DNA of 61,801 nucleotides from Acidobacteriaceae bacterium (lineage in GTDB: Bacteria > Acidobacteriota > Terriglobia > Terriglobales > Acidobacteriaceae). Positions 24,725-58,731 of the stretch are shown here, piece by piece. The stretch covers positions 1 through 61,801 of the forward strand of contig JASIAO010000326.1 of NCBI GenBank assembly GCA_030041955.1, given 5' to 3'. Position numbers and translations under genes: made by a program. A model generated the notes under the pieces. That model saw nothing but the letters and a program-made list of their open reading frames with translations, did no database searches and was not told the origin of the DNA. How positions within the stretch are numbered: the first letter of the stretch is position 1; every line of letters begins with the position of its first letter.

Positions 24725-25150
24725 ATGACTAACCAGGAAATCAATCGAGATCTGGCATGGTTTCGTTACAACCTGCGGCGGTTTCTCCGCTTCAGCGAGG
24801 ACGCGGCGCGGGAATGCGGCGTGACGCCGCAGCAGCACCAGCTGATGCTGGGCGTGGTGGGCTTCACTGAGGCCGGCACCGCGACGATTTCGGAACTGGC
24901 GGAGTTTTTGCAGGAACGGAACAATTCCGTGGTTGGGCTGGTGGGGCGGGCGATGGAGAGCGGTCTGGTGGTACGGCAGTCGGGGGCGACGGACCGGCGG
25001 CAGGTGGTGGTGTCGCTCACGGAGAAAGGCAAATCAGTCCTCGGCCAGCTGACACAGATGCACCACGCCGAGCTGCGACGGGTGCGTGTGGGGTTCCCTA
25101 CAGGATGGGACTGGCCGAGACGCGCGGCGATGAGCAGGAAATCCGCATGA
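24725..25150 (+). CDS. MarR-family transcriptional regulator (second paralogue), first gene of the ClC operon
   Basis: This 141-residue regulator has the same layout as marR1: helix AWFRYNLRRFLRFSEDAAREC, then TPQQHQLMLGVVGF, the recognition helix EFLQERNNSVVGLVGRA and wing TDRRQVVVSLTEKG. I start it at ATG 24725 and not at the GTG inside the operator (24674), because homology begins there. Its TGA overlaps the ATG of the first ClC gene (ATGA at 25147-25150), which implies translational coupling. MarR proteins usually repress their own operon until an acidic or phenolic ligand or oxidant binds. Confidence 0.9.
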   Translation: MTNQEINRDLAWFRYNLRRFLRFSEDAARECGVTPQQHQLMLGVVGFTEAGTATISELAEFLQERNNSVVGLVGRAMESGLVVRQSGATDRRQVVVSLTEKGKSVLGQLTQMHHAELRRVRVGFPTGWDWPRRAAMSRKSA

Positions 25151-26937: not shown

Positions 26938-26983
26938 AGCAGCGGTTGGCGGACTACAAGCAGGGCGAGTACGGAGGTTCACG

Positions 26984-28795: not shown

Positions 28796-28826
28796 ATCTT
28801 CGAACCTGAATGAGGAGAGTCCACAA

Positions 28827-30110
28827 ATGGCATTGGTCGAGATCTATTCGCAACGGACCGATTTCCTGAATGCTCTGTTTCGTGACTACCATGGGGCACC
28901 CTTTTGGATTCAGGCGCCGAACTGGCACTGGGAGTCTTCACCAAACTCGGTCCCGGTTTTTGTGCTCCGATTCAGGACCACAGAAGGGCTCGAATCTCTC
29001 TTCCGCAACCCCACACAGGTCGCCCTCGGGAAAGCATTCATCAAGGGAGATGTCGACATCGAGGGCGACATCTACTGCGCAGTGAGCATGGCGGATTACG
29101 TCCTTGCCCGCGTGTCGAGCAGATCCGGTTCGCCCCGCCGGATCGCGCAAAGGGCGATTACGAGCGTCGCCGCCCGGCTCCTTCGATGTCGCCTGCATTC
29201 GCAGCAACGAGACCGCGCCGCCATAGCGTATCACTATGACCACCCTCCACAGTTCTTCCGGCCGTGGCTTGGACCCACGATGGCATACTCATGCGCTTAT
29301 TTCAGGGAAGTCGCGGACGATCTTGACACCGCTCAGGAGAACAAACTGGATCTTATTTGCCGCAAGCTCGATTTGCGCGCCGAGGATTCGTTCCTCGATA
29401 TCGGTTGCGGATGGGGCAGCCTCGTACTCCACGCCGTGTCCCGGTATGGCGCCACCAGCCGAGGCATAACGCTGAGCACCGAGCAGGCGCGTTTCGCAGC
29501 GCATCGCATTTCCTCAGCCAATCTGACACGGAACTGCTTCGTCGAGGTCCGGGACTACCGCGCTCTGCCCGACCTTCCCTATCGCTATGACAGAATGGCG
29601 AGCGTCGGCATGTTCGAACATGTCGGCTCCAGGAGCTTGCCTGCTTACTTCGCCATTGCCTGGCAACTCCTGAAGCCCGGAGGTCTTTTCCTCAACCACG
29701 GAATCGCCCGCTCAGCGTTAGTACCGCCGCGGCGCGACTCTTTCATTGACAAGTACGTTTTCCCCGACGGCGATCTCGTCCCTCTCTGCGAAACCATACA
29801 GCATGCGGAACAGGCCGGCTTCGAAGTGAGAGATGTTGAGAATCTCCGCGAACATTACGTGCAAACACTTCGGCTTTGGGTCGACGGTTTGCAGAAGAAC
29901 GCTACATCCATTCTGGCTGATGTATCGGAAGAGGTCTATCGAATCTGGCTGCTCTACATGGCAGGATCTGCGGTCGCGTTTGAAAGAGGCGACATCTCCG
30001 TCAATCAGGTGCTCCTCCGGCGGCCGGCCCGCGAATCAGTAAGCGTGCCTCGAACCCGGGAACATTGGTACACGAACTGGAGCGCCACGGAATTGCCCAG
30101 ATCCGCGTGA
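28827..30110 (+). CDS. cfa: cyclopropane-fatty-acyl-phospholipid synthase
   Basis: This SAM-dependent enzyme adds a methylene bridge to unsaturated acyl chains in membrane phospholipids, which lowers proton permeability and is a known acid-resistance determinant in E. coli. The 427-residue protein has an N-terminal lipid-binding part and, from about residue 191, the SAM motif DIGCGWGSLVLHA, then LSTEQARFAAHRI, DRMASVGMFEHVG and GGLFLNHGIA. The C-terminal helix bundle ends near EHWYTNW. ATG 28827 with GAGGAG upstream was chosen; an in-frame extension overlaps the ClC gene. The operon context (MarR, two ClC) supports an acid or membrane-stress function. Confidence 0.93.
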   Translation: MALVEIYSQRTDFLNALFRDYHGAPFWIQAPNWHWESSPNSVPVFVLRFRTTEGLESLFRNPTQVALGKAFIKGDVDIEGDIYCAVSMADYVLARVSSRSGSPRRIAQRAITSVAARLLRCRLHSQQRDRAAIAYHYDHPPQFFRPWLGPTMAYSCAYFREVADDLDTAQENKLDLICRKLDLRAEDSFLDIGCGWGSLVLHAVSRYGATSRGITLSTEQARFAAHRISSANLTRNCFVEVRDYRALPDLPYRYDRMASVGMFEHVGSRSLPAYFAIAWQLLKPGGLFLNHGIARSALVPPRRDSFIDKYVFPDGDLVPLCETIQHAEQAGFEVRDVENLREHYVQTLRLWVDGLQKNATSILADVSEEVYRIWLLYMAGSAVAFERGDISVNQVLLRRPARESVSVPRTREHWYTNWSATELPRSA

Positions 30111-31861: not shown

Positions 31862-34345
31862 TCAGATCCGTCGGTCCTGGGGCCGCTCAGTGCGGAACGC
31901 TGCATGACCGCTCTTCAGCCCCGACGATGTCGCAGTGACCCGCACGGCTCCCGGCCGGAACGTGGAGCGAACGGCAACCCGCATCAGTCCCCCCTCCGCC
32001 CGTAGCTCGTGGTCGCCGGGCGCATGCCACGCCGCGGGCTTGCTCGGGTCAACATAGAAGTTATACGAGCCGCGGTAATCTCCAGGACCGGAGACGGAGA
32101 ATTCGAGCTTATTGTCTGCGTCGACGCACACAATGCCGTCGCGATCGACAATCTGCGCGGTAATCAGCGCTACGTCAGAGCCGTTGGCACGCACGGGGAA
32201 CTGGGTTCCGTCGGGTCGGGTCAGCTGCGGCTCGACGGTGAGAAGAATGCGCGCCGGCTTGCCGGAAGTGCGTCGCTCGTCCGCGCACACGGGTTGGCCC
32301 GCGTGGTCCAGACCAACTGCCTTCAGGCGACCTGGTTCCCACGAAATCTTTTCCCACGTGCAGCGCATTTCCGCATCGGGCGTGCGGCGTCCCTGACTTA
32401 TTCCGTTGACGAATAACTCCACCTGCGGGCAATTACTCCAGGCATCGACGTTCTGAATGCCAGAAAGATTCCAGCTACTTTGAAGAGTAACTCCCGGACG
32501 TTTGGAATAGGGCAGCCACAGCGCATTCTGGAAGATGCGGTACGGCAGCTTCGGGAAGCGGTTGCCGTCCATGGCGCACGAGCCGAGGGACTTCTGATGA
32601 GTCATGCCGTTCAGATATGGCATGAAGGGCGATTCCATCGTCTCGGCAAGCATCCAGAAGATCCATCCGCAGGCGCGATCCTGAATATTGGACACGTATT
32701 GTTTCGTAAAGAAGTCGGCAGACTCCTTCTCGTGCGCATAGTCGAAACGCGCGTTGCCGCGGTAATAGCACTCCATGTTCATCGACGGCGAGCCCGGGAC
32801 TTTCTTATAGTGCGCGGTGTAGCCGATCATGATTTTCCTGTCGGCCGGCCAGTAATCGGAAGTATCGCGGCTTTCGACGATGCGGCCGCCGTCGGGATCC
32901 CAGCGATCGGCCAGCTCCTGAGTGACTCGCGGCGAATAAATGTCGGTGTGATGCTGCTGGGAGGCCAGGCCGTTATTGGATTCCCACACCGCGACCGATG
33001 GATGATTGCGGAAGTAAATTATCGTGTCGCGGTCGTATTCCTTCTTGTAAGTCAGCGCCGGTTCGCTATAGAGCGCCCACTCGTTGTCGCCGCTGTCCTG
33101 GATCACCAGCACACCGTAGGCATCGCAGGCGGACACGGTTTCCGGCATGGCGGGAATATGGCCCACACGCAGGGTGCTGCCTCCGCAGCCGGCGATCAGC
33201 CGCACGTCGTTCCACTGCAGCTCCGCCGGCACCGCCGAGCCAAGAGCCGGATACGTATTGCGCTGCCCGAAGCCGTTCAGCAGATGTTTGTCGCCGTTCA
33301 CGTATCCGTAATCTGAGTCCCAGCGGAGGGTGCGGATCCCAAAGGGAGATTCGACCCGATCGACTTCCGCGCCGTTCAGTTGCACGATGCTGACGGCGCG
33401 ATAGAGATATGGGCTGCCCGAGCTGCTGTTATTCGGATACCAGAGCCGCGGCTGCGGCACCTCGCCGGACTGATCGAACAGGGCCATCGCCCCGGGCGGG
33501 ATGGTCCTGGTTGCGGTCATGGACAGGGCGGTGTTGCCGTCCGCATCGAGGAGTTTCGTCGTCAGCATGGCGTCGCAGGCCGAATCGCTCTGATTCTCGA
33601 CATTCGTCCGAGCGCGCAACTGCGCCCCGTCGGCGTTGGCCGCGAGCGTCGCGAGGTACGTTCCCCATTTCTGCATCGGCGAGTAAGCATTCAGGGGAAT
33701 GTGGACCGGATGGGTGATGTGCAGATACACCGGGCAGACGATGCCGCCGAAGTCCATGCCCAGAGCGAAGGTGCTGCCGAACCCCGGCCAGGTGAAGAAG
33801 CTGTGTTCCGCATTGGAGACGCGCACCGCAATCACGTTGTCCGCGTCGTAGCGCAGATCGGCGGTGATATCGAGAGCAAAAGGAATGAAGCCGCCAACGT
33901 GCGTGACTTCCTGCGGCTGCGGAACTGCCGTATTGCCGGGGTAGAAGCGTCCGTTGACGTATACGGCGGCGGCAAGATCGACGCCCTGGAACTCCAGCAG
34001 GAATCGCTTCCCCCGGTCGCGTCCGTCGACAGAGAAATGTTTGCGGTACCAGACCGTTCCCTGAAACGCGTTGTTCAGCGAGAGGTTCTGGTAAGTGTCG
34101 GTGTCGTTGAAGCAGTGGGGCACACCGACTTTCGTCCACGCAGCGTCGTCGAATGCGGTGTCCCTGGCGGCGGGGTAGGGATCCCCCCTGAGGAAGAGCC
34201 AGGGAGTGTTTCCCAGGTCGATGATCTTTCTGGGTGCGGCGCCGTCAGCCGCCCAAAGACTCCGCGCCTCCCCTGATAGCAGCGGCAGAGCGAGGCTGCA
34301 GGCTGTCAGTCCCTTCAGAAATTCGCGACGATCTGTGCTGGTCAT
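31862..34345 (-). CDS. Tat-exported glycoside hydrolase family 2 enzyme with atypical acid/base site
   Basis: This 827-residue GH2 protein has a twin-arginine signal (TDRREFLKGLTACSLALPLL) and the GH2 order: jelly-roll domain (SFDVFLNG-type segment AAVYVNGRFYPGN), Ig-like domain, TIM barrel (YRDTIIYFRNHPSVAVWE) and an Ig-like C-terminus. In most GH2 enzymes the barrel reads W-x-x-G-N-E with the acid/base Glu last. Here residues 454-459 are W-E-S-N-N-G, so the usual Glu is missing and a Glu sits at 455 instead. This occurs in a recognisable GH2 subgroup, so the enzyme may still be active. The nucleophile is probably the Glu in MECYYRG. Substrate unknown (plant or bacterial beta-glycan). A 25-bp motif lies 118 bp upstream. 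Confidence 0.85.
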   Translation of the reverse strand: MTSTDRREFLKGLTACSLALPLLSGEARSLWAADGAAPRKIIDLGNTPWLFLRGDPYPAARDTAFDDAAWTKVGVPHCFNDTDTYQNLSLNNAFQGTVWYRKHFSVDGRDRGKRFLLEFQGVDLAAAVYVNGRFYPGNTAVPQPQEVTHVGGFIPFALDITADLRYDADNVIAVRVSNAEHSFFTWPGFGSTFALGMDFGGIVCPVYLHITHPVHIPLNAYSPMQKWGTYLATLAANADGAQLRARTNVENQSDSACDAMLTTKLLDADGNTALSMTATRTIPPGAMALFDQSGEVPQPRLWYPNNSSSGSPYLYRAVSIVQLNGAEVDRVESPFGIRTLRWDSDYGYVNGDKHLLNGFGQRNTYPALGSAVPAELQWNDVRLIAGCGGSTLRVGHIPAMPETVSACDAYGVLVIQDSGDNEWALYSEPALTYKKEYDRDTIIYFRNHPSVAVWESNNGLASQQHHTDIYSPRVTQELADRWDPDGGRIVESRDTSDYWPADRKIMIGYTAHYKKVPGSPSMNMECYYRGNARFDYAHEKESADFFTKQYVSNIQDRACGWIFWMLAETMESPFMPYLNGMTHQKSLGSCAMDGNRFPKLPYRIFQNALWLPYSKRPGVTLQSSWNLSGIQNVDAWSNCPQVELFVNGISQGRRTPDAEMRCTWEKISWEPGRLKAVGLDHAGQPVCADERRTSGKPARILLTVEPQLTRPDGTQFPVRANGSDVALITAQIVDRDGIVCVDADNKLEFSVSGPGDYRGSYNFYVDPSKPAAWHAPGDHELRAEGGLMRVAVRSTFRPGAVRVTATSSGLKSGHAAFRTERPQDRRI

Positions 34346-34462
34346 AGTCCTCCGACCGGTGCGGTGGCCGATTTACGAAGTTGGCTGATCCCTGGGCACG
34401 AGCAGGTGGAAACGCTGCCCGAGCCAGGCTATCTCAGTCAGCAGCCCGTGTCTCTGCCCTGG

Positions 34463-34487
34463 TTGACGCGGTTCTGTATTCCATTGC
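34463..34487. promoter_or_regulatory. 25-bp motif, copy 1 (upstream of the GH2 gene)
   Basis: TTGACGC is followed by GG and then TTCTGTATTCCATTGC. The same sequence occurs at 39163-39187 with CT in place of GG (23 of 25 identical), also about 110 bp upstream of a minus-strand gene. It is a candidate binding site for the adjacent AraC regulator. Confidence 0.6.
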
Positions 34488-34497
34488 CGTCCCGCTC

Positions 34498-35325
34498 TCA
34501 CCGGTGTTCTCTTTCGCTCAGGATCTGCTCGAAGAACAGCAGGCTGTCGAGAAGGTGCTCGCGCCAGTAAGTCCAGCCATGATTGCCGGCGAAGACTTCA
34601 AAGGTGTGGGGAATGCTTCGTTCGGCGAGCGCCCGATGCAGGGACTCGTTGCCTTTGAGCAGAGGGTCGTCCTGCCCGCAGTCGAAACGGAGGGGAGGGA
34701 GCTGCGCGCGGCGCCGATCGACCCAGTAAAGAGGATCGAGTTCGTGGTCATTGGCCGATTGAAATGGGCTCACGTCGCGGACAAACTGCCCGAATTGCGC
34801 AGCCGCCGTAATGGCTGAATGGGCCGAGATGCCGCAAAAGCGCTCAGCGTACTTTGCGCCGAGCCGGAGCGCACCGTAGCCGCCCATCGAGAGGCCTGCC
34901 AGCAGGAAGTCTGCGCCCGCCGGAGCGAACACCGCCTCAATGCACTGCATCACGTCTTCGCAGATCCATCGCTCGAAATCCTGGTCCGGGCCGGGCAGGT
35001 AGCCGGTGCCGTCGCCTCGAAGGCCGTCCGATGGAGCCACGATCAGCATCGGCCGGATGCGCCTTTCGCGGATCAGGGTAAGCGCGGTGCGATGCGCTGC
35101 ACCCTTGTGGAACCAGGCCCAGTGGCTGCCATAAACGCCATGCAACAGCAGCGCAACCGGCGTTCTGCGCGACCCATCGATTCCAGGAGGGATGAAGAGG
35201 CTCACGTCGCCGCGGCCGCGCAGCGCCGGACTGTAGAAAGTCAGGTGGCGCAGATAGTCGTGTTCGGAAGCCGGATCCGAGAGTTCTACCGGGGAGAAAC
35301 GGCCTGGCAGCGTGGAGACGTCCAT
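34498..35325 (-). CDS. esterase of the PF00756/FrmB-type alpha/beta-hydrolase family
   Basis: This 275-residue alpha/beta hydrolase has nucleophile Ser146 in GLSMGGYG, an Asp in FDCGQDDPLL (about 215) and His in GNHGWTYW (about 247), and lacks a signal peptide. The family includes S-formylglutathione hydrolase (FrmB/EstD) and feruloyl/acetyl-xylan esterases, so it could cleave a thioester or a plant ester. Its ATG shares one base with the TAA of the upstream ADH gene (TAATG at 35323-35327), so the two are translationally coupled. Coupling to a class-III-like ADH favours a formaldehyde-oxidation role, with ester cleavage as the alternative. Confidence 0.82.
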   Translation of the reverse strand: MDVSTLPGRFSPVELSDPASEHDYLRHLTFYSPALRGRGDVSLFIPPGIDGSRRTPVALLLHGVYGSHWAWFHKGAAHRTALTLIRERRIRPMLIVAPSDGLRGDGTGYLPGPDQDFERWICEDVMQCIEAVFAPAGADFLLAGLSMGGYGALRLGAKYAERFCGISAHSAITAAAQFGQFVRDVSPFQSANDHELDPLYWVDRRRAQLPPLRFDCGQDDPLLKGNESLHRALAERSIPHTFEVFAGNHGWTYWREHLLDSLLFFEQILSEREHR

Positions 35326-36395
35326 TACGGAAGCAGCACTCCTTTGGCGTTCACTCCACGCCGCATGTCTTCGAAGGCCTCAGCCAGGCCAGAAAGCGGA
35401 TAGGTGCGGGTCACCATCTCATCCAGCTTCAGCCGCCGCTGCCGGTACAGCGAGAGCAGAACGGGAAAATCGATGAATGGCCGGCACTGCCCGTACAGCG
35501 GATTGATATACCGCTTGTCCCATTCGAAAAGCTCCATATTCACGGGGACAACTTCCTCCACGCCGCTCACGGCCACTGCGCATCCGCCGTTGCGCACCAT
35601 GGCCAGGGGCGAAACGCCCAATGCCGGCACCGCCGTGCACTCGAAAGCGTAGTCCGCGCCGCGCCCGGTCAGTTCGTGAACCTTCTGGGCCGCGCGCAGC
35701 AGTCCTGCGTCGTCAGGCTCCGCCTGAATGGTATGCGTGGCGCCAAACTGGCGCGCCAGCCCCAGCCGGTTGGGGTTCAGATCGATGGCAATAATCATGC
35801 CTGCGCAGGCGTGGACTGCACCCTGCACCACGCTGAGTCCCACTCCACCGGCGCCCAGCGCCACCACCGAGCATCCCTTTTCCACCATTGCGGCATTGAC
35901 CACCGACCCGAATCCGGTCATGACACCACAGCCGAGAATCGCGGCCGAGGGAAACGGAATCTCCACGTCGATCTTCACCACCGCCTGTTTGGGCACAACC
36001 GCATGTGACGCCATCGTTCCCAGATGAAACGAGGTGGCGACAGGCCTGCCGCGGTGTTCGAACCTCTCGGGCGGCACCGTGGGCTTCCGCTCGCAGATGT
36101 TCTCTGCGCCACGGCGGCACTGGAAGCAATCGCCGCACGGGATCGCCCAGTTGAGCAGAACGCGGTCGCCCGGCTGCACATGATCGACGCCGTCCCCGCA
36201 CTCGAGGACAATGCCCGCGCCTTCATGGCCCATGATCAAAGGCTTACCCCACGACATCGAATCGAAATCGGTGTGGCAGACGCCGCTCGCTTTGATTTCG
36301 ACGAGGACTTCATTCCCCTGGGGGCTGTCTATTCGCACCTCATCCAGTGTGAAGTTGCCCTGGCCGTCGGTGACGATTGCATTTGCTTTGATCAT
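35325..36395 (-). CDS. zinc-dependent alcohol dehydrogenase, class III-like
   Basis: This 356-residue MDR dehydrogenase has all zinc ligands: catalytic Cys40 (GVCHTD) and His57-Glu58 (GHEGAG), and structural Cys87, Cys90, Cys93 and Cys101. The NAD-binding Rossmann motif is VVALGAGGVGLSVVQGA (about residues 175-195). The sequence most resembles S-(hydroxymethyl)glutathione/formaldehyde dehydrogenases and related aryl- or long-chain alcohol dehydrogenases. It lies 18 bp downstream of the ferredoxin-reductase gene and overlaps the esterase gene by one base. It would oxidise the alcohol or formaldehyde adduct made by an upstream oxygenation; the substrate is not known. Confidence 0.9.
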   Translation of the reverse strand: MIKANAIVTDGQGNFTLDEVRIDSPQGNEVLVEIKASGVCHTDFDSMSWGKPLIMGHEGAGIVLECGDGVDHVQPGDRVLLNWAIPCGDCFQCRRGAENICERKPTVPPERFEHRGRPVATSFHLGTMASHAVVPKQAVVKIDVEIPFPSAAILGCGVMTGFGSVVNAAMVEKGCSVVALGAGGVGLSVVQGAVHACAGMIIAIDLNPNRLGLARQFGATHTIQAEPDDAGLLRAAQKVHELTGRGADYAFECTAVPALGVSPLAMVRNGGCAVAVSGVEEVVPVNMELFEWDKRYINPLYGQCRPFIDFPVLLSLYRQRRLKLDEMVTRTYPLSGLAEAFEDMRRGVNAKGVLLP

Positions 36396-36413
36396 GATCA
36401 GTCCCCCCTTTTG

Positions 36414-37586
36414 TCAGGAGCCCAAAACAACGGAGGTGACCGGCCTGCAGCTGCACGGCAGGCAGGTTCCGGGATCCGGCGTCGCTCCGGTCGGGTGCAG
36501 ATAGGCGACCTCTCCGCTCACCAGCGTCGTCTGGCAGGTGGCGCAGTCGCCGTACCGGCATCCGTAGTCCAATTCGATCCCGTTGGCCTCAGCCAGCTCG
36601 AGCAGCGTGCCCGAGTTTCCCGTCCACGGAACGGTGACGCCCTCCCGCAGAAAGGTCACGCTGATCTCCGATTCCCGGGGCGGCTCTTCGTCGGCCATCG
36701 CCGCACGCAGCGACAGGCTCGACGGCCCAAATGACTCTGTTCGTATCCGGCCATTTTCGACACCCGCCTCCAGCAGTTCCGCCGCAACCGCCTGCATCAT
36801 GCCGGGCGGCCCGCACAGGAAGTACTCCATCCGCCTCTCGGCGGCCAGCTGCCGCAACAGCGAGGCATCGATCCGCCCCGCGGCGTCGTAATCAGCGCCG
36901 AGACGGTCTTCCGGACGCGGCTGCTCGTACAGGATGTGCATGCGCAGGTTTGCGTGGCGCCCGCGCAGCTGCTGCAGATGCTCTCTGAACACATGATCGC
37001 CGCCGTGGCGCAGCGCAAACAGGAAATGGATCTCTCGTGTGCATCCCGCCCGGCTCGCGGCGTTCAGCATGCTGATCATGGGGGTTACACCGATGCCGCC
37101 TGCGATCAGGGCCACGGGGTGCGTCTCGGAGAGATCCAGACAAAAGCGGCCGTTCGGCATTTTGGCCTGAAGGATGTCGCCGGACTGCAGGTGGTCGTGA
37201 CACCAGGTCGAGCTCAGCCCGGCGGGCAGATCCGGACGGTCGGCAGGCGGCCCCTGACGCTTGATCGTCAGGCGGTACCGCCGTCCGTCGAAGGCGTCGG
37301 AAAGCGTATAGCATCGGATGATCGGCTTCGGCAGGCCTCGCATAGCGAGCCGAATGGGAAGATGCTGCCCGGGAAGATACGGCGCCAGCGCGCCGCCGTC
37401 CGCCGGCACCAGATAGAACGACTTTGCGGTTTCGCTCTCGGGGACAATCGCATCGACCAGAAAGTCGCGATACGACACCCAGCTTGCTTCCCGGCCATTC
37501 GTCAACGTCACACGCGTCCCAGGTTGTTCAGAGGATGTTGGTAGTGGATGGGGGAAACTGCGCACATCCGCTACCAATGCGGGCAA
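36414..37586 (-). CDS. oxygenase reductase with FAD, NAD(P) and 2Fe-2S domains
   Basis: This 390-residue protein has a flavin-binding barrel (RCYTLS at about 85-90), an NAD(P)-binding domain (GGIGVTPMISML at about 160-172, CGPPGMM at about 265) and a C-terminal plant-type 2Fe-2S ferredoxin domain (DYGCRYGDCATCQ with three cysteines, then CLPCSC). This is the layout of electron-transfer partners of ring-hydroxylating, P450 and diiron oxygenases. It begins nine bases after the diiron-protein stop, which implies a two-component system. No other electron-transfer protein is seen in the operon, so the ferredoxin domain may act directly on the diiron protein. Confidence 0.92.
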   Translation of the reverse strand: MPALVADVRSFPHPLPTSSEQPGTRVTLTNGREASWVSYRDFLVDAIVPESETAKSFYLVPADGGALAPYLPGQHLPIRLAMRGLPKPIIRCYTLSDAFDGRRYRLTIKRQGPPADRPDLPAGLSSTWCHDHLQSGDILQAKMPNGRFCLDLSETHPVALIAGGIGVTPMISMLNAASRAGCTREIHFLFALRHGGDHVFREHLQQLRGRHANLRMHILYEQPRPEDRLGADYDAAGRIDASLLRQLAAERRMEYFLCGPPGMMQAVAAELLEAGVENGRIRTESFGPSSLSLRAAMADEEPPRESEISVTFLREGVTVPWTGNSGTLLELAEANGIELDYGCRYGDCATCQTTLVSGEVAYLHPTGATPDPGTCLPCSCRPVTSVVLGS

Positions 37587-37595
37587 GCGATCTCG

Positions 37596-39056
37596 TCATC
37601 CGGCGACCTGCTTCAGATCCGCGCGAGTGTTTTCATAGGTGGTGCTGTAGGCAAGGAGATTCGGATCGGGCTCGATCCCCCAAAACCGGCACGCGTCGCG
37701 GTAAACTTCCGGCCACCAGTTGCGGTGTTCCGTCAGTCCCTGTTCGCGCCAGCGCGCCCAGTCCACCAGAATGCGCGACCACGCGCTGTCTCCAAACGCC
37801 AGCGCCTGTTTTTGGCCGCCCAGTTCCGGAACCAGCCAGTCGCGCCCGATCCGCGCATGCAGAATCTCATCCGCCCAGTCGTAGTCCTGAATCAGCGCCG
37901 TCAGGCGGTTCGCCGTGGCCACGGCTACGGCCCACTCGTACTCTTTGCCTGTCTTTTTAGGCATCAGTCCCTGCTCGATGGCATAGAGCACGCCGTGCCG
38001 CTCCAGGGGCGTCAACTGCGTGTTGAGCCCGAGGGACCACGTGAAGTTGAGAGGGATCTTTGTCCAGTCGATGCCCATGGAGACGAAGCCGATCTCGCCC
38101 ATCATGGCGTGCCGCGCTTCGTCCCATAACTGGCGGGTCATGTCCCGGTAATACTCCCAGGGCTTGCCAGGGGTCTCCACCAGGATGCTCGACATCATTT
38201 CGGGAACGTCGATCTCCCGCAGGCGCTTGAAGTACAGCATGATCGACTTGGGCAGCGCCGGGATTTCCGGATCGAACAGGAACGCCTCCGCATTGACCCC
38301 CATGTTGTAGGGATCGCGGAATCGCTCATCGCGCTTCGGCACGCCGTCATAGCGGTAAGGAACCGACGAGTACATGCGCCGAGGCTCGATGCTATTTTTC
38401 GGCTGCGTTCCATCCAAGTCGCCCGCAGCGCCCAGCAGCTCTTCCAGCAGCGCCGTCCATTCGGCCAGAGCGGAGCGGGCTGCGTCATCGACCAGGCATG
38501 CGATCGCCTGCTGACCGTATTCGAGAACATCCTGCATCTCGATCAGCGTCAACCGGCAAACGCGCCAGGTCGGGTGATCGAAGAGCTTACTGGTGTCGGC
38601 CACCAGGCGCTCCAGCGCCCGTACCACGGCGGGGATGGCATAGCCGTAGAGCCCAAGAACCAGCGCAGGCGTCTGCGGCGCGCACAGGATTTCGTCGAAG
38701 AAGGCGTCCAGCGCCGCGTCGGGGCAAACCTCCAGCCCGTAAGGAGGCTGGCGCATCTCCCGCACTCGGTTGGCGAAGGGCTCGACGTGCTCGGCACAAT
38801 AATGCGCGTGCAGGCTGAACGCCATCTTGAGCTCGTAAACGGGCATGGCCGCGATGCGCGCCACAAAGATCATGTGCAGCCGCTTCAACGACCAGTGCAA
38901 CCGCAGCTGCCGCGCGACAGACTCCGCGACGGTCAGGCCCCGGGAACTGGCCTCGCTCATCGAATGCAGGCCGACCAGGGGTGGAAGATGAGCATGGCCG
39001 GTGTAATCGGCCATGCGCTGCCGAACCTGCTCATCGTTAATCGGCTGCTGGCTCAT
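37596..39056 (-). CDS. putative ferritin-like diiron oxygenase, unassigned family
   Basis: This 486-residue helical protein has no signal peptide. Two ExxH motifs are seen, E313-A-R-H316 (WDEARHAMMGE) and E397-I-L-H400 (ADEILHARIG), each on a helix as in ferritin-like diiron sites. The other ligands may come from E75 and H83/H85 (VYELKMAFSLHAHYC) or E173/E178. I cannot match it to a named diiron family such as soluble methane/phenol hydroxylase, AurF or MiaE. The gene begins at ATG 39056 with GAAGGAG upstream; an in-frame extension reaches 39116. It is the first gene of a unit with its reductase, ADH and esterase, so it is the candidate catalytic component. Confidence 0.7.
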   Translation of the reverse strand: MSQQPINDEQVRQRMADYTGHAHLPPLVGLHSMSEASSRGLTVAESVARQLRLHWSLKRLHMIFVARIAAMPVYELKMAFSLHAHYCAEHVEPFANRVREMRQPPYGLEVCPDAALDAFFDEILCAPQTPALVLGLYGYAIPAVVRALERLVADTSKLFDHPTWRVCRLTLIEMQDVLEYGQQAIACLVDDAARSALAEWTALLEELLGAAGDLDGTQPKNSIEPRRMYSSVPYRYDGVPKRDERFRDPYNMGVNAEAFLFDPEIPALPKSIMLYFKRLREIDVPEMMSSILVETPGKPWEYYRDMTRQLWDEARHAMMGEIGFVSMGIDWTKIPLNFTWSLGLNTQLTPLERHGVLYAIEQGLMPKKTGKEYEWAVAVATANRLTALIQDYDWADEILHARIGRDWLVPELGGQKQALAFGDSAWSRILVDWARWREQGLTEHRNWWPEVYRDACRFWGIEPDPNLLAYSTTYENTRADLKQVAG

Positions 39057-39162
39057 CTGGAGGATCTCCTTCTCACTGTCTGCAGGTCCGATGGTGCTGC
39101 GTACGGCACCGACCACTTCTGAGGAGGATATCGCCGCCCCATTCAGGAAATCCTCTCAGAGA

Positions 39163-39187
39163 TTGACGCCTTTCTGTATTCCATTGC
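39163..39187. promoter_or_regulatory. 25-bp motif, copy 2 (araC/diiron divergent region)
   Basis: TTGACGC is followed by CT and then TTCTGTATTCCATTGC, matching 34463-34487 at 23 of 25 positions. It is 107 bp upstream of the diiron gene and 55 bp upstream of the AraC gene. This position fits an activator site controlling both units. Confidence 0.6.
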
Positions 39188-39228
39188 GCTGCTTTCGAAT
39201 TTTCTGTCGTCAGATTGGCAAACGTGGT

Positions 39229-39234
39229 TAAAAT
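39229..39234 (+). promoter_or_regulatory. araC -10 element, leaderless arrangement
   Basis: TAAAAT ends seven bases before the ATG at 39242 and no ribosome-binding site precedes the codon. This supports 39242 as the start and a leaderless transcript. Confidence 0.4.
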
Positions 39235-39241
39235 TGCGCCT

Positions 39242-40171
39242 ATGAGGGCGCATTTCGAGAAGGTCACATCCGGGTCCGCCTCATTGCTCGCATTTGAACG
39301 CGTTGATTCGGAGTTCCCCTTCTACTGGCATTACCATCCGGAGTTCGAGCTAACCCTGATTGTCGACAGTCACGGTCAGCGCCTCGTCGGCGACGGTATT
39401 GGAGATTACGGCCCCGGAGATCTGGTCCTTCTCGGGTCCAACCTCCCCCACAGCTACCGCTCCGGTCCGGTCAAAATGCCGGACCAGAAATGTCACCGCG
39501 CCGTCGTCATCCAGTTCCGCGAGGATTGTCTCGGGCCGGAATTTTTCAAAATTCCGGAGATGAAGCCGATTATGCGCCTCCTGCAGCGCTCCGCCTGCGG
39601 CCTGTCCTTCAGTCACACCGCCTCGGGCCGCATCGCAGCCGGCAAGATGAAGGAGTTCCTCTCCTTCTCACCTGCTCGGCGTATCGTCGAGCTGCTCGAA
39701 ATCCTCGTCATTCTCGCCTCCGAGCCGAATCCGGCGACGCTCTCCACCGATTACGTCAGGCCCATGTGCCGCATCGAGGATCAGCAGCGCATCGAAGCCA
39801 TCTGCGCTCACCTCAGCGCGCACTTCGACGAGGAGATTGACTACGCCAGGCTCGCTGACAAGCTTCACATGGATCAGGCTTCCCTCTGCCGCTTCTTCAA
39901 GCGCGCGACCGGGCGCACTATGACTGCCTACGTGAACGAGCTGCGCGTGGGCGCGGCCGCTCAGCTGCTGACCACCACCGATCTCAGCGTGCTCGACATC
40001 GGCTTCCAGGTGGGCTTCGGCAACTACTCCAATTTCAACCGCCAGTTCAAGCGCATCAAGGGATTTGGTCCGCGCACCCTCCGCCAGCAGTTCCGTTCCC
40101 ATGCCGAGCCGGAGTTCACGCTTCCGCCGGGAATGGACGCCGACCCCCTCCCTTCCCGCATGCGGGCCTGA
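39242..40171 (+). CDS. AraC-family transcriptional regulator with cupin sensor domain
   Basis: This 309-residue regulator has an N-terminal cupin-like sensor (PFYWHYHPEFELTLIVDS, GDYGPGDLVLLGSNLPHSY) typical of sugar-responsive AraC proteins and a C-terminal double helix-turn-helix (residues about 200-300; DYARLADKLHMDQASLCRFFKRATG and LSVLDIGFQVGFGNYSNFNRQFKRIKG). I prefer ATG 39242; a TTG at 39215 would add nine residues but has no better signal. It is divergent from the diiron operon and upstream of the amylase operon, so it is the likely regulator of both. The shared 25-bp motif supports this. Confidence 0.92.
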   Translation: MRAHFEKVTSGSASLLAFERVDSEFPFYWHYHPEFELTLIVDSHGQRLVGDGIGDYGPGDLVLLGSNLPHSYRSGPVKMPDQKCHRAVVIQFREDCLGPEFFKIPEMKPIMRLLQRSACGLSFSHTASGRIAAGKMKEFLSFSPARRIVELLEILVILASEPNPATLSTDYVRPMCRIEDQQRIEAICAHLSAHFDEEIDYARLADKLHMDQASLCRFFKRATGRTMTAYVNELRVGAAAQLLTTTDLSVLDIGFQVGFGNYSNFNRQFKRIKGFGPRTLRQQFRSHAEPEFTLPPGMDADPLPSRMRA

Positions 40172-40217: not shown

Positions 40218-40358
40218 GTTCAGCCAACCGAGTACACAAATCTCTCAATTCCGATGAGGAATTCTCTATTCCCGGCGTATTACGCTGAGCGCGCCGAAAC
40301 AACTCTGCACGCGTGCGTTCCGGCTCGTTCCCCAGCTGATCCTCCGCGGAGATTTTCG

Positions 40359-42524
40359 TTGTCCCCAGTGTGCCTGCGTTTTAAGAAGCTGTTCGATCGC
40401 AGCCTTTGCCTGCTTGCCCTGCTGACGGCAGGTGTGGCCGCGCCCGCGCTGCACGCGCAGGATTTCCGGAAGCAGGTGATCTATCAGATCATCACCGACC
40501 GGTTCTTCGACGGCGACCGAACGAACAACAATCCGCCGCAGAGCCCGGGCATGTACGACCCCACGAAGACCAACTGGCAGGCCTACTGGGGTGGCGATTT
40601 CGCCGGCATTCAGGACAAGTTGCCTTATCTGAAGCGCATGGGCATCACCGCCATCTGGATCTCTCCTTCGGTGGACAACATCAACGTGCCCATGACGGGC
40701 CCCGACGGCAAGCCCGTTCCTTATCTTTTTGCTCCCTATCACGGCTACATCAACCGCGATTTCATGCGCGTCGAGGAGCACTTCGGCAGCAGCCGCAACG
40801 ACTGGAAAGCTTTCGACTCGATGACGGCTGCCGCACATGCCGACGGCATCAGGATCGTTCTCGACTTCTCGCCGAACGATTCGAACCTGACGTTCACGGC
40901 CGAACACGGCAATCTCTACGACAATGGCAAACTGCTGGCGACCTACGATCACGATCCGCAGGGCATGTTTCATCACAACGGGATGCTGACGAACATCAAT
41001 GACGCCTATCAGCTCCAGTACTACAACGTTTTCGGGCTCGCCGATCTGAACCAGGACAATCCCACCATTGACCGCTACATCAAGGACTCCATCCACCAGT
41101 TTCAGGACCATGGCGTTGATGCGGTCCGCCTCGATGCCGTCCGCCACATTACCTGGGGCTGGTCGTACAGTTTCGCCAACTCCGTCTACAGCTACAAGCC
41201 CAGCTTCATCTTCGGCGAATGGTTCATGGGCGGACCGCAGGACCCGTTCTACTCGGATGCCTGCAAGTTCGCGAATCACAGCGGCATGTCTCTGCTGGAT
41301 TATCCCTTTGCCATCGCCATCCGCGACGTCTTCGCAAACGACAAGGGATTTTCTGAAATCCAGAAGATGCTCGACAGAGAGGACCGGAACTTCGCTCATC
41401 CGCTCGACCTCGTCACTTTCGTCGACAATCACGACATTCCGCGGCTCCTCTCTGTAAAGGACAACCGCCATCGCCTCGATGAGGCGGAGGCGCTGGTGCT
41501 CACCGCGCGCGGAATTCCCGTCATCTACTACGGCGACGAGCAGTATCTGCACAACGATACCGATGGCGGGCGCGACCCTTATACCCGGGTCTGGATGTCT
41601 TCCTATGACACCCACACCGTCGGCTTCCGCCTGGTGCAGCGGCTGGCTGCGCTGCGCCAATCCAACGATGCGCTCGCTTACGGCAGCATGCAGATGCTGC
41701 AGATCGAGCCGGATGTCTTCGTTTTCGAGCGACGATTTGCCAACGATGTGGTGCTGGTGGCCATCAACAAGAGCGAAGCAGCTTCCGCCACGATCCCCGC
41801 GCTGGCAACCAGCCTGCCACCTGGGAACTACCGCGATGTTCTCACCGGCCTGATGGATGGGAGCCGACTGCGCGTTCGCCGCGGCGCAGGCGGCCAATCG
41901 GAGACGGGACCGCTGGCGCTGCCTCCCCACAGCGTTTCCGTGTGGCAGTCCGCGCGGTCCGCGAGCGGCCCGGAAGTGGGGTCGATTGGGCCGACGATCG
42001 GCCAGCCCGGCATGCAGATCACGATTGCCGGCCAACACTTCGGCGCCTCGCAAGGTTCGGTTCTGGTGGGCAGCGCCGCTGCCGCCGTGCGCTCCTGGAC
42101 CGATGAGACGGTCACGTTCACCATTCCTGCAGTGCCTCCGGGGCAATATTCCGTCCGCCTGCGGACCGCTCAGGGATCCGAGTCCAATCCAGTTCCCTTC
42201 ACCACGATTGAGAACCGGCTGATCCCGGTCACATTCACGGTGGATAATGTCCCTCTGCTGCCGGGCGGCTCCGTCTATTTGACAGGGAATACAGTCGGGA
42301 CCGGACAATGGAAAACAGACCCCAGCATCGCCCCAGGTCCTTTTCTTTGTCCTCATTCGCCTACGTGCTTCCTCGATATTTCCGTTCCTGCCGGCAAGGC
42401 GCTGGAATTCAGAGTTTTTCTGATCGCCCGCGATGGATCCCTGCACTCGGAGAGAGGCGGCAAGCACGCCTACGCCGTTCCCAACAGCGGAACCGGCAGC
42501 GTAACCGTGGACTGGCAGCGATGA
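40359..42524 (+). CDS. exported alpha-amylase-family (GH13) enzyme with IPT and CBM20-like domains
   Basis: This enzyme of about 721 residues is expected to hydrolyse or transglycosylate alpha-1,4-glucans outside the cytoplasm. The signal peptide ends near APALHAQD. The GH13 barrel carries the nucleophile Asp259 (VRLDA), acid/base Glu287 (FGEWF) and transition-state Asp359 (VDNHD). An IPT/TIG domain (about 550-630) and a CBM20-like C-terminal module (FTVDNVPLLPGGSVYLTGN) follow, the same order as in cyclodextrin glucanotransferases and maltogenic amylases. TTG 40359 has GGAG seven bases upstream; the frame extends to ATG 40254 without a good site. It starts an operon with the GH127-like gene 37 bp downstream. 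Confidence 0.9.
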   Translation: MSPVCLRFKKLFDRSLCLLALLTAGVAAPALHAQDFRKQVIYQIITDRFFDGDRTNNNPPQSPGMYDPTKTNWQAYWGGDFAGIQDKLPYLKRMGITAIWISPSVDNINVPMTGPDGKPVPYLFAPYHGYINRDFMRVEEHFGSSRNDWKAFDSMTAAAHADGIRIVLDFSPNDSNLTFTAEHGNLYDNGKLLATYDHDPQGMFHHNGMLTNINDAYQLQYYNVFGLADLNQDNPTIDRYIKDSIHQFQDHGVDAVRLDAVRHITWGWSYSFANSVYSYKPSFIFGEWFMGGPQDPFYSDACKFANHSGMSLLDYPFAIAIRDVFANDKGFSEIQKMLDREDRNFAHPLDLVTFVDNHDIPRLLSVKDNRHRLDEAEALVLTARGIPVIYYGDEQYLHNDTDGGRDPYTRVWMSSYDTHTVGFRLVQRLAALRQSNDALAYGSMQMLQIEPDVFVFERRFANDVVLVAINKSEAASATIPALATSLPPGNYRDVLTGLMDGSRLRVRRGAGGQSETGPLALPPHSVSVWQSARSASGPEVGSIGPTIGQPGMQITIAGQHFGASQGSVLVGSAAAAVRSWTDETVTFTIPAVPPGQYSVRLRTAQGSESNPVPFTTIENRLIPVTFTVDNVPLLPGGSVYLTGNTVGTGQWKTDPSIAPGPFLCPHSPTCFLDISVPAGKALEFRVFLIARDGSLHSERGGKHAYAVPNSGTGSVTVDWQR

Positions 42525-42561: not shown

Positions 42562-44559
42562 ATGAATCGTCGCGAATCGCTGAAGCTGCTCACCGCCGCG
42601 GCGAGCTCCGCATTCCTGAAACCCTGGCCGGCGCTGGCGCTTTCTGGCCCTCACGGCACCGGCGATCCGTCCGCTTCCGACGCTGCTGTCGCAACCCAGC
42701 CCGTTTTCTCCTGGCTGCCGGTGGGAGCTGTCAGGCCTGCCGGCTGGATTCGCGCGCAAATGCTGCGCGACCTGAATGAGGGTTTTGCCGGTTGCCTGGG
42801 CCGGCTCTGTCATGAAGCCTCGTCCGACATCTTCGTGACAAATCGGAATTCGCTGCACTCGCAGAATGTTGCCAACCGCAACGGTGTCGCGTGGTGGAAC
42901 GGCGAAACCGAGGGCAACTGGCGCGCCGGTTTCATCATGATGGCGTACCTTACCGGAGATCCACGCACCATGCAGGAGGCCGATGACTACGTGCGCCACA
43001 TCCTCGCCTCGCAGGACAGCGACGGCTACCTCGGGATCTTCGCGGCGGATTCGCGCTTCGTGCATCCAGGTGAGCTCTGGACGCAGGCGTGCCTGCTGCG
43101 CGGCCTGCTCGACTATGCCGATCTCGCCGGGAATCCCGCCGTGCAGACCGCCGTCCAGCGCTGCGCCGATCTCATCGTTTCAGTCTATGGCTCCGGCAAA
43201 ACGCCGGTTCCGTGGGGCGAGAATCACGACCTGATGATTGTCGACGTGATGGAGCGGCTCTTCGAGGGCACCGACGAGGCCCGCTACCGTGACTTCTCCG
43301 TGTGGTTGTACGACGACTGGAGCCGCAACGTCAGCGGCGCCGACACCAGCCTTCCCTCGCTGCTGAATCGGGAGGCGCCCTTCGTGCAGCACGGTGTGCA
43401 CACCTATGAGTCCATTCGCGTCCCCCTGTGGCTGGCAGCCGCCACCGGCCGCCCCGATCTCGGGCAGGCCGCGCGCAATGCCATGGACAAGCTGAGCCGC
43501 TATGCCGAGCCGGGCGGGTCCGGCGTGAGCGAAGAGCTGATCGGCAATCTGGCTCCGAACCCGACTTCGACCGAATACGAATACTGCGCCACGAAAGAGA
43601 TTCAGTTCACGCTGGAATCCGCGCTGCAGAAGACGGGGATCGCGGCCTACGGCGACAAGGCGGAGAAAGTCTGGTTTAACGACGCGCAGGGCGCGCGAGC
43701 TGCCGACGGGCGCGCCATCGCCTATCTCTCGCCCGATAATCGTCTGCGCTGCAATGGCCTCACACCGGATGGCACGCGCGCCGAGCCGCGCAACAAATTC
43801 TCGCCCACCCACGCCGACGTCGCAGTCTGCTGTAATCCGAACGCCGCCAACGTCGCCGCGCTCTATGTCCGCGGCATGTGGATGCGTCGCGACAACGACA
43901 CTCTGGCCGCTCTGCTGTATGGCCCTTGCCGCGTTTCCACGCAGATCGGAGGCGTCGATGTCGCGATTGAGGAGCAGACAGCGTATCCCTTCGAGGACCA
44001 GGTGAGCATCGCCGTGCATCCGGAAAAGCCGGCGCGCTTTTCGCTGCTGCTCCGAGATCCCGGCTGGTCGGACGGCACCCAGGTGAGCTGCCCCAATGCC
44101 CGCATCGCCCGCGAAGGCAGCTACTGGCGCGTGACGAAGGAATGGAAAGCGGGGGACACGGTTCACGTGAGATTCACCCACGAAGTCCGCACCCTGACCT
44201 CCGTCAACGGTGAGATTGCGCTCGAGTACGGAGCGCTGGTCTTCGCTCGGCCCATCGCCTCCACCCAGACCGTGATCCGCACCTATCCGCTTCCAGGCTT
44301 TGCCGACACGTACGACGAACCGGATCCGGGCAGGCAGGAAGAACTCGTCCTCACAGCGGAATCGCAGTGGCAGGCCTTTGGATTCGAGCCGCGGCGGACC
44401 GGAGAGGTTGCGGACCTCCAGTATCCGTTCGACAGACCTGCTTTCGTCCTGCGCGGCTCCATGATCGGTGCCAGTGACCGGCAGCCGGTTGCCGTCGATC
44501 TGGTTCCCCTGGGCAACGCTCCCTTGCTGCGCAGGACGACGCACGCGATTTCATCCTGA
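42562..44559 (+). CDS. GH127-like glycoside hydrolase (beta-L-arabinofuranosidase fold)
   Basis: This 665-residue protein begins with a Tat/Sec-type signal (NRRESLKLLTAAASSAF). It has the (alpha/alpha)6-barrel sequence pattern of the GH127/146 clan. In HypBA1 the catalytic zinc is held by one Glu and three Cys, of which a cysteine is the nucleophile. Here the equivalent residues are visible as E340-Y-C342 (STEYEYCATKE) and the paired Cys423-Cys424 (VAVCCNPNAAN), so the site appears intact. A plausible substrate is beta-L-arabinofuranosyl or a related furanosyl unit of plant polysaccharide or glycoprotein. It lies between the amylase and MFS genes (37 bp and 33 bp gaps). Confidence 0.85.
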   Translation: MNRRESLKLLTAAASSAFLKPWPALALSGPHGTGDPSASDAAVATQPVFSWLPVGAVRPAGWIRAQMLRDLNEGFAGCLGRLCHEASSDIFVTNRNSLHSQNVANRNGVAWWNGETEGNWRAGFIMMAYLTGDPRTMQEADDYVRHILASQDSDGYLGIFAADSRFVHPGELWTQACLLRGLLDYADLAGNPAVQTAVQRCADLIVSVYGSGKTPVPWGENHDLMIVDVMERLFEGTDEARYRDFSVWLYDDWSRNVSGADTSLPSLLNREAPFVQHGVHTYESIRVPLWLAAATGRPDLGQAARNAMDKLSRYAEPGGSGVSEELIGNLAPNPTSTEYEYCATKEIQFTLESALQKTGIAAYGDKAEKVWFNDAQGARAADGRAIAYLSPDNRLRCNGLTPDGTRAEPRNKFSPTHADVAVCCNPNAANVAALYVRGMWMRRDNDTLAALLYGPCRVSTQIGGVDVAIEEQTAYPFEDQVSIAVHPEKPARFSLLLRDPGWSDGTQVSCPNARIAREGSYWRVTKEWKAGDTVHVRFTHEVRTLTSVNGEIALEYGALVFARPIASTQTVIRTYPLPGFADTYDEPDPGRQEELVLTAESQWQAFGFEPRRTGEVADLQYPFDRPAFVLRGSMIGASDRQPVAVDLVPLGNAPLLRRTTHAISS

Positions 44560-44592
44560 TTCCGGCTCCCATCGGGCCCCGAGGCAGAATTG

Positions 44593-45978
44593 ATGGCATC
44601 CACACAGCGAATCAAACCGATCGGCATGCCGGCATCCGCGGAGCAGCCACGAATCACCGCCGTGCTGGTTGTCAGCAGCGCCGTGGCCGCGCTCGGCGGC
44701 CTGCTCTTCGGCCTGGATACTGCGGTGATCGCCGGCGCGACGAACGCGCTCTCCGAGTTGTTTCGACTTTCGCCAGGCATGCTCGGCGTCACCGTTTCCA
44801 GCGCCCTGTGGGGCACCATCGCCGGAGCTGCGCTGGCGCCGCCTCTCGGCGAACGGCTCGGCCGCCGCGACAGCCTGCGCATCGCGGCCATCCTCTATCT
44901 GGTTTCGGCCCTCGGATGCGCCTTTGCCTGGAGCTGGCCCGCGCTGCTCGCCTTCCGCATCGTGGGCGGCCTCGGCATCGGCGCGTCCTCCGTGCTCGGC
45001 CCCATGTACATTGCCGAGATCGCTCCCGCCGCGTGGCGCGGCCGTCTCGTCTGCAGTTTTCAGATCAACATCGTCATCGGAATTCTGCTTGCCTATCTCT
45101 CCAATTACGTCATCGTCCTGAACAGGCTCGGTCTTGCGGAATGGCGCTGGGAGCTGGGGGTTCCCGCCCTCCCCGCAGCGATTTTCCTGGTCGCGCTTTT
45201 CTTCATCCCACGCAGCCCGCGCTGGCTCCTGGGAAAGCATCGCCTGCACGAAGCCGAATCCGCACTCATCGCTGTGGGCGAACCCGCTCCGCAGACGGAG
45301 ATTGTGCGCATCCGCACCTCCCTGACTGCCGAGCGCGCTCTCAGCCACGAACGCATCCTCTCGCGCCGCTATCGCCTGCCGCTGTTCCTTGCCGTCAGCC
45401 TCGGGCTTTTCTGCCAGCTTTCCGGCATCAACGCGATCCTCTATTATCTGAACGACATTTTCCGCGCGGCCGGCTTCGCGAAGGTTTCCGGAGATCTCCA
45501 GGCCGTGGCGGTCGGCGCGACGAATCTCATCTTCACGCTGCTGGCCATGATGGTGATTGACCGCATCGGCCGCAAAGCCCTCCTGCTCATCGGTTCCGTC
45601 AGCATGGCCGCGGCCCTGGTTGGGATTGCCGTGCTCTTCTCTACACAGCATCATCAGGGCTGGCTGCTGTGGCTGCTTATCGGATATGCCGCGTCCTTCT
45701 CGTTTTCAGAGGGCGCGGTGATGTGGGTCTACATCGGCGAGATTTTTCCCAACTCGGTGCGCGCTCGCGGGCTGGGCGCCGGAAGCCTGGCCCACTGGGT
45801 CATGAACGCGCTCATCTCCGCGGTCTTCCCGGTGCTCGCCGCGTGGTCCAAAGCCATTCCCTTCGAATTCTTCGCCGCCATGATGATTCTGCAGTTTTTC
45901 GTCGTCTGGTTTGTCTTTCCTGAGACGAAAGGGATTGCCCTCGAGGACATGCACGAACGCATGACGCATGCGGCATAA
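44593..45978 (+). CDS. MFS sugar porter (sugar/proton symporter)
   Basis: This 461-residue, 12-helix protein belongs to the sugar porter family. It has the helix-1 motif GGLLFGLDTAVIAGA, the loop 2-3 motif GERLGRRDSLR, the PRSPRWLLGKHR motif after helix 6, the Gln-rich helix-7 QLSGINAILYYLND, the loop 8-9 DRIGRKALLL and the end motif PETKG. XylE and GalP of E. coli have the same layout, so it probably imports a hexose or pentose with protons. The start ATG 44593 is preceded directly by TTG 44590; GAGG lies upstream. It is the last gene of the amylase/GH127 operon, so it may import their products. Confidence 0.93.
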   Translation: MASTQRIKPIGMPASAEQPRITAVLVVSSAVAALGGLLFGLDTAVIAGATNALSELFRLSPGMLGVTVSSALWGTIAGAALAPPLGERLGRRDSLRIAAILYLVSALGCAFAWSWPALLAFRIVGGLGIGASSVLGPMYIAEIAPAAWRGRLVCSFQINIVIGILLAYLSNYVIVLNRLGLAEWRWELGVPALPAAIFLVALFFIPRSPRWLLGKHRLHEAESALIAVGEPAPQTEIVRIRTSLTAERALSHERILSRRYRLPLFLAVSLGLFCQLSGINAILYYLNDIFRAAGFAKVSGDLQAVAVGATNLIFTLLAMMVIDRIGRKALLLIGSVSMAAALVGIAVLFSTQHHQGWLLWLLIGYAASFSFSEGAVMWVYIGEIFPNSVRARGLGAGSLAHWVMNALISAVFPVLAAWSKAIPFEFFAAMMILQFFVVWFVFPETKGIALEDMHERMTHAA

Positions 45979-57007: not shown

Positions 57008-57116
57008 CAGTTATCCTTCTGCTGTCGTTTCGAAGAGTTAGCACTCCGGATGGTGACAAACCGCACGAATCGCACCACGCCGCTCGGAGAGCCGCTGGGA
57101 AGTTCGGAACCGAACT

Positions 57117-58640: not shown

Positions 58641-58672
58641 GGCAACCTCCGGGCTTCTGCGAAAAGGGACAG

Positions 58673-58708
58673 AAAACGCGGAGGACACTCCGGGCAGAGT
58701 GCCCTCCG
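58673..58708 (-). terminator. intrinsic terminator between the TonB receptor and GH39-like genes
   Basis: On the minus strand a 12-bp stem (58697-58708 with 58679-58690, one G-T pair, loop 58691-58696) is followed by TTTT at 58676-58673. It begins 24 bp after the receptor stop and ends about 30 bp before the GH39 start codon. Confidence 0.7.
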
Positions 58709-58731
58709 AGAAGTCAGCTTCCGGGAGGTAA

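Follow-up and report, generated by a model that had tools for sequence, protein, structure and literature searches.

What is the function of a 25-bp sequence that stands, almost unchanged, before two transcription units beside an AraC-family regulator gene? The question arose in a 61,801-nucleotide stretch from an Acidobacteriaceae bacterium (assembly GCA_030041955.1, contig JASIAO010000326.1, positions 1 to 61,801; the window), for which a first-pass annotation, made from the sequence alone, had proposed a shared AraC site. The two copies, TTGACGC-NN-TTCTGTATTCCATTGC, lie where they had been placed, at 34463-34487 and 39163-39187, and are indeed identical at 23/25 positions; the distances given to the start codons, 118 bp to a GH2 glycoside hydrolase gene and ~107 bp to the gene of a putative diiron protein, are correct as well. 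Copy 1 is found between the end of an esterase gene and the GH2 start, and copy 2 sits, again as described, upstream of araC, in the stretch that separates this gene from the divergent diiron gene. When up to 3 mismatches were allowed, 2 matches were found in the window against 0.00 expected (100 dinucleotide shuffles), and a search of the whole genome (4.65 Mb in 539 contigs) at the same tolerance found the sequence only at these 2 places, and at none of the unrelated sites that the annotation had allowed for.

Our analysis indicates that the 25-mer forms the gene-distal portion of a promoter of 65 bp that is predicted to depend on an activator. We put at roughly 0.86 the probability that such sites are AraC-dependent promoters, joining four transcription units into a glycan regulon under the adjacent regulator, which would act as a class-II-type activator. 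The regulator and the four predicted elements are as follows.

39242-40171, plus strand: AraC-family regulator, the proposed activator, with a C-terminal HTH_18 domain (Pfam) and an N-terminus that is cupin-like by eye.
34423-34487, minus strand: operator/promoter 1, before the GH2 gene; half-site 1 at 34472-34486, half-site 2 at 34450-34466, -10 element TAGCCT at 34426-34431.
39123-39187, minus strand: operator/promoter 2, preceding the diiron operon and also lying upstream of araC; half-site 1 at 39172-39186, half-site 2 at 39150-39166, -10 element TATCCT at 39125-39130.
40224-40288, plus strand: operator/promoter 3, before the GH13 amylase gene; half-site 1 at 40225-40239, half-site 2 at 40245-40261, -10 element TACGCT at 40281-40286.
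51757-51821, minus strand: operator/promoter 4, before a TonB-dependent receptor gene; half-site 1 at 51806-51820, half-site 2 at 51784-51800, -10 element TATGCT at 51759-51764.

Membership of the regulator in the AraC/XylS family is given by its HTH_18 match (E 8.2e-21; 74.5 bits against a cut-off of 33.6). By eye, its transcript may be leaderless, with a TTAAAAT box ~10 bp before the ATG (39226-39242). Operators 1 and 2 contain the two copies from which the analysis started. Before the amylase gene, the annotation had listed a weaker partial match, TTCTCTATTCC at 40262-40272. The string is present, but as an operator it was rejected: it has 1 mismatch in 11, there are 3 such matches in the window against 0.44 expected, and it falls within the spacer region of the promoter that serves the amylase gene. 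The true third copy occupies 40224-40248 of the other strand and reads TTGAGAGATTTGTGTACTCGGTTGG; with respect to its gene it points the same way as copies 1 and 2. A fourth copy, absent from the annotation, is that of 51757-51821 before the TonB-dependent receptor.

The first alignment comprised 17 sites in gene orientation, and a position weight matrix (PWM) derived from them added 8 untrained sites, so that 25 were used later. Operator 4 was among those found outside the training set, as were four sites at L051, one at L028 and two weaker ones at L056 (G, L and C numbers are our own handles for genomes, loci and contigs). Conservation in the 17 sites extends past the 25-mer, through a second half-site ending in GAGGA, to a TA-rich hexamer at a fixed distance. 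Over the 25 sites the consensus in gene orientation is nMAAY-nnrr-TAYA-nAA-nnnn-rTCAAt-n6-GAgGAc, followed after 17-19 bp by TAnnnT. The half-sites are direct repeats, with CAAT/MAAY at positions 2-5 and CAAT at 23-26, and this recurrence of (T)CAAT at a 21-bp period places both on the same helix face, two turns apart. TCAA at positions 22-25 is invariant in 25/25 sites, and the -10 element TANNNT begins at position 56, 57 or 58 in all 25, 17 of which had been chosen without inspection of the -10 region. A spacer of ~17 bp would put the -35 hexamer on the GAGGA of half-site 2, which does not correspond to a -35 consensus. Between the window and the congener G199 the site blocks are nearly invariant and much of the surrounding intergenic DNA varies; at the receptor and amylase promoters, conservation continues beyond the site too. 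At operator 2, comparison of sequences revealed the footprint in three alleles.

In the Escherichia coli araBAD operon, AraC activates transcription in the class-II manner from araI1-araI2. By analogy with this system, the layout described here would be that of an AraC class-II activator site: the regulator gene is divergent from one of its targets, two direct-repeat half-sites recur at a 21-bp period, the proximal one lies at -35, and a -10 element, here predicted to be activator-dependent, follows. Unlike in araBAD, the half-sites have a different sequence and there are four target units, which include a TonB-dependent receptor and an oxygenase-type operon.

The motif is kept with the cluster in relatives; the lack of conservation that the annotation had named as telling against its proposal was not seen. 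When 298 genomes of the order were searched with the diiron protein, 21 had matches; one of these is G199, which has two paralogous loci. There the motif precedes the diiron gene (0 mismatches), the GH2 gene (1 mismatch) and, on the other strand, the amylase gene (5 mismatches), the window counterpart of the last being 40224-40248. Orthologues of the AraC protein were found in 9/300 genomes of the family, that of the organism included, with 47-87% identity in the 8 others, and diverged copies of the motif occur in most of these loci, also in other genera. In a family survey with the model from all 25 sites (R1), the motif was detected at E<=0.01 in 12/300 genomes, among them all 9 with an araC orthologue (hypergeometric probability 4.6e-15). 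The corresponding class survey gave 4/349 genomes at E<=0.001. In three of these (G000, G016 and G030) an araC orthologue is present, and the match coordinates of the fourth, G569, are those found in G373 (KBS 96), which has araC. The distribution of the sequences thus indicates that the operator is kept with the regulator and gone without it, with one clear exception, G329.

Two further models were used, R2 from the 16 sites outside the organism's own genus and R3 from own-genus sites only. When 10 genomes were surveyed with R1, the own genome gave E values of 6.3e-9, 1.0e-8, 3.1e-6 and 7.2e-6 for operators 3, 2, 4 and 1, respectively; the fifth match had an E of 0.52, and no operator was found elsewhere in this genome. 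The held-out R2 gave 0.017, 7.0e-5, 6.5e-5 and 2.7e-4 for operators 1 to 4; at E<=1 its 4 matches in the whole own genome were exactly the four window sites, 6 matches were obtained in G199, and none in ten congeners without an araC orthologue. A PWM of the same 16 sites scored the window sites 40.0, 36.0, 34.8 and 22.3, the next best in the window being 7.9 and the highest among 200 simulated windows 12.6. In a leave-one-genome-out PWM test, 25/25 sites were regained at a score of at least 12, with 2 extra matches, both at L028. Candidates in G153 (E 4.2e-4) and G144 (E 3.2e-3) were not counted as regulon members, because a survey of 300 genomes at E<=0.01 should give ~3 matches by chance. 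Likewise, sites on contigs C29 of G199 and C34 of G181 were not claimed as distant trans-acting sites, because both lie within ~8 kb of a contig end and may belong to the same cluster split by the assembly.

If the sites belonged to another regulator, such as an unlinked AraC paralogue or a global factor, the neighbouring araC would be a passenger. G329, with two strong sites and no detected araC orthologue, would fit this, but we consider it improbable: motif and araC orthologue occur together in 9/9 genomes, both are missing from the ten congeners mentioned above, a site lies within ~200 bp of araC in several genomes, and the own genome has no other site. From these data we infer that this AraC is the binding protein. 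Less probable still is that it represses, or that it only autoregulates at the araC-diiron region with the other copies weak or silent. One site does lie upstream of araC, at a distance of 54 bp from its start codon; however, the distance from half-site 2 to the -10 element is constant in the 25 sites and a standard -35 is absent, and therefore activation from a position overlapping -35 is predicted, since a repressor needs no such distance. That two copies are alike at 23/25 bases, in a window that also carries a group II intron, might suggest a dispersed repeat or a recent duplication (a mobile-element end, or gene conversion) devoid of regulatory meaning. This is scarcely credible, as the flanks of the two copies differ, every site precedes a -10 element and a gene, and the sites are conserved islands between species that diverge in parallel over several genera; the leave-one-genome-out PWM and the R1 and held-out R2 surveys exclude it in practice. 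A shared AraC site, as the annotation had proposed, is hence the reading best supported by the sequences, through conservation with the cluster, co-occurrence with araC, and two half-sites with a fixed -10 element.

Several observations weigh against this reading. The 9/9 co-occurrence involves some circularity, since the training sites of R1 came from surveyed genomes. R3 is far less sensitive and reaches noise by ~E 1e-3 outside the genus; at E<=0.05 it reports 43/300 family genomes, mostly noise, and misses G016, G030 and G163. G329, whose two sites are good, has no araC match at E<=1e-15 in a genome that is 77% complete. Finally, 6/11 genomes drawn from the order that have a close diiron orthologue (at least 63%) have no araC orthologue at E<=1e-60 (one of them, G007, is of another family and so outside the araC family survey), and their loci have no good site, except for one weak match at L029.

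Very probably, a single AraC-type regulator thereby induces the import of a sugar polymer, perhaps a methylated one, together with its cleavage and oxidation. On sensing a sugar ligand, which may derive from the degraded polymer, the regulator would bind the two direct-repeat half-sites, 21 bp or two helical turns apart; the promoter-proximal half-site would stand in for the -35 box, and the bound protein would recruit RNA polymerase to the -10 element ~31-33 bp beyond the second TCAA. The four promoters would then turn on the receptor, the diiron-reductase-alcohol dehydrogenase (ADH)-esterase operon, GH2, and GH13 with GH127 and a major facilitator superfamily (MFS) transporter behind it. The araC-diiron intergenic site may also serve autoregulation. 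The genes are as follows.

31862-34345, minus strand: GH2 glycoside hydrolase, beta-galactosidase-like (Pfam; GalA/GalB-like in NCBIfam, below cut-off).
34498-35325, minus strand: CE1-like esterase, encoded at the end of the diiron operon (Pfam Esterase; nearest solved structures are feruloyl esterases).
35325-36395, minus strand: zinc ADH of the FoADH/ZoADH type (PDB 8h2a/8h2b).
36414-37586, minus strand: FAD/NAD reductase with a C-terminal 2Fe-2S domain (Pfam NAD_binding_1 and Fer2).
37596-39059, minus strand: DUF455-like two-bundle ferritin-fold putative diiron protein, ATG start at ~39057 (alignment, structural model, DUF455 matches).
40359-42524, plus strand: GH13 amylase with TIG and CBM20 domains (Pfam), starting at TTG 40359 or GTG 40368.
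42562-44559, plus strand: GH127-type glycosidase (Pfam).
44590-45978, plus strand: MFS sugar transporter (Pfam Sugar_tr, E 1.4e-100; D-xylose-proton symporter in PDB, E 1e-72).
48167-51598, minus strand: TonB-dependent receptor-type outer-membrane protein (Pfam OMP_b-brl_4 and CarboxypepD_reg).

An open reading frame (ORF) at 44551-45654 (minus strand) gave conserved tblastn matches and was rejected as a gene, being the antisense of the MFS transporter gene. In relatives, the genes directly behind the sites were assigned by tblastn and family matches. The TonB-dependent receptor gene holds this position in the own genome, G199, G181, G330, G318 and KBS 96, and the diiron gene in the own genome, G199 (twice), G181, G340, G318 and KBS 96. 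GH2 and GH13 do so in the own genome, G199 and G318, GH127 in G199, and the MFS transporter in G181, G318 and G016. Single cases are an HpcH/HpaI aldolase (G330), a PhyH dioxygenase (G163) and a short-chain dehydrogenase/reductase (G153, doubtful). On contig C73 of G199 (L026 11929-12303), the sole match between the GH2 and diiron genes was to an esterase stretch of 125 residues, and ADH and reductase were unmatched there; the second locus, on C23, keeps the diiron and ADH genes. These loci have the appearance of duplicates between which the gene set has been divided. G016 carries two nearly identical operators ~6 kb apart (L053 10463-10527 and 16253-16317), the first leading into an ORF that starts with an MFS-like fragment and continues into another protein, which suggests a decayed duplicate of the MFS gene.

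The diiron protein had no Pfam or NCBIfam match at 1e-3. Proteins of PF04305 (DUF455) are ferritin-like, and this family was matched weakly by 13/13 aligned diiron proteins (best E 2.9e-6); with the window protein the match (E 0.015, below the gathering score) covers residues 291-409, its C-terminal bundle. Unlike DUF455 proteins, it has an additional N-terminal ferritin-like bundle, and its AlphaFold2 model consists of two helical bundles (mean predicted local distance difference test score, pLDDT, 80.6). The ligand set E282 or E287, E314xxH317, E362 and E398xxH401, in the C-terminal half, is invariant in 13/13 aligned proteins. The model thus has two ExxH motifs and two further Glu residues on predicted helices; such a set on a four-helix bundle marks a ferritin-like diiron carboxylate protein, and metal binding is predicted. 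Foldseek gave no match to the model at E<=0.001. With VIA-align, Z scores of 14.6-16.6 were obtained to ferritins, aldehyde-deformylating oxygenases and toluene monooxygenase; because these matches are confined nearly entirely to the N-terminal bundle, we claim only the fold class.

Which polymer might be oxidized? FoADH and ZoADH are by far the closest structures to the ADH (8h2a/8h2b, E 4.5e-132/5.5e-128; next best 2.7e-54). According to PMC10033563, in marine porphyran users these enzymes adjoin P450, redox partners, esterase, GH2 and SusC-type genes, prefer aromatic aldehydes, and are required for growth on 6-O-methylgalactose and not for formaldehyde removal; formaldehyde detoxification by the window ADH was dropped accordingly. 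Compared with the cluster for porphyran/6-O-methyl-D-galactose demethylation in marine Flavobacteriia (PMC10033563), the window has an ADH of the same kind with an adjacent esterase, a reductase partner, and GH2 and SusC-type receptor genes nearby. Unlike that cluster, it has the DUF455-like diiron protein and one FAD/2Fe-2S reductase instead of a P450, a family found in none of the cluster proteins scanned, and its other glycosidases are GH13 and GH127. The same combination of ADH and esterase was found at three loci of Bacteroidota (3/27 genomes searched), where homologues of the diiron and reductase genes are both absent from ~18 kb. The pair is thereby weakened as proof of demethylation, and a methyl-sugar substrate, suggested by analogy, is offered only as a hypothesis that we regard as doubtful. 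The substrate might instead be ferulate or some other methoxylated aromatic ester, because the esterase is CE1-like and the nearest ADHs prefer aromatic aldehydes (PMC10033563).

In some relatives a corrinoid methyltransferase operon stands behind the same operator. That of G318 is led by MtaB (E 5.1e-156) and also has a B12-binding protein, a RACo-type activase and a URO-D/MtaA-like protein; that of G329 is MtaA/MtaC/MtaB-like, with the MtaA-like protein assigned by family match and a corrinoid-protein-like and a contig-cut MtaB-like product by eye from the ORF listing. Unlike established MtaB/MtaC/MtaA systems, the G318 and G329 proteins fall below the NCBIfam equivalog cut-offs, and unlike in these two genomes, no such genes are among the cluster genes of the window. 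The operons of this kind under the operator in these two relatives (L051 12890-18290 and L175 1-2374, both minus strand) comprise MtaB, a corrinoid protein, a RACo-type activase, DUF1638 and an MtaA-like protein, and are unusual beside glycosidases.

It is conceivable, if rather unlikely, that this is a methyl-glycan regulon of Acidobacteriaceae, in which one sugar-sensing AraC would control a P450-free oxidative O-demethylase (the DUF455-like diiron protein and the FAD/2Fe-2S reductase, accompanied by the marine module's ADH and esterase), outer-membrane import and glycosidases, the Mta-type operons of some relatives being an alternative methyl route. An AraC-type activator regulon is of a known kind, and its cargo here is unusual. 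Little seems to have been described of the operators that AraC regulators use in Acidobacteriota, a full-text literature search having given nothing on point in the portions of text it covered. The 65-bp consensus and the defined four-promoter regulon make the substrate findable through inducers, tie the DUF455-like diiron family, so far unassigned, to glycan use, and raise the concrete hypothesis of P450-independent sugar demethylation.

The group II intron lies at 46356-48021 (minus strand), between the MFS and TonB-dependent receptor genes of the regulon; its maturase ORF (46356-47858) has RVT_1 and GIIM domains, and Rfam D1-D4 matches were found at 47749-47832 and 47851-48021. Further on, at 55370-61791 (minus strand), genes for an amidase, a GH39 enzyme and a second OMP_b-brl_4 outer-membrane protein run in the same direction without such an operator. 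On the other side of the cluster, two tandem voltage-gated chloride channel (CLC) genes at 25105-28795 precede a gene at 28719-30110 whose product is cyclopropane fatty acid synthase-like.

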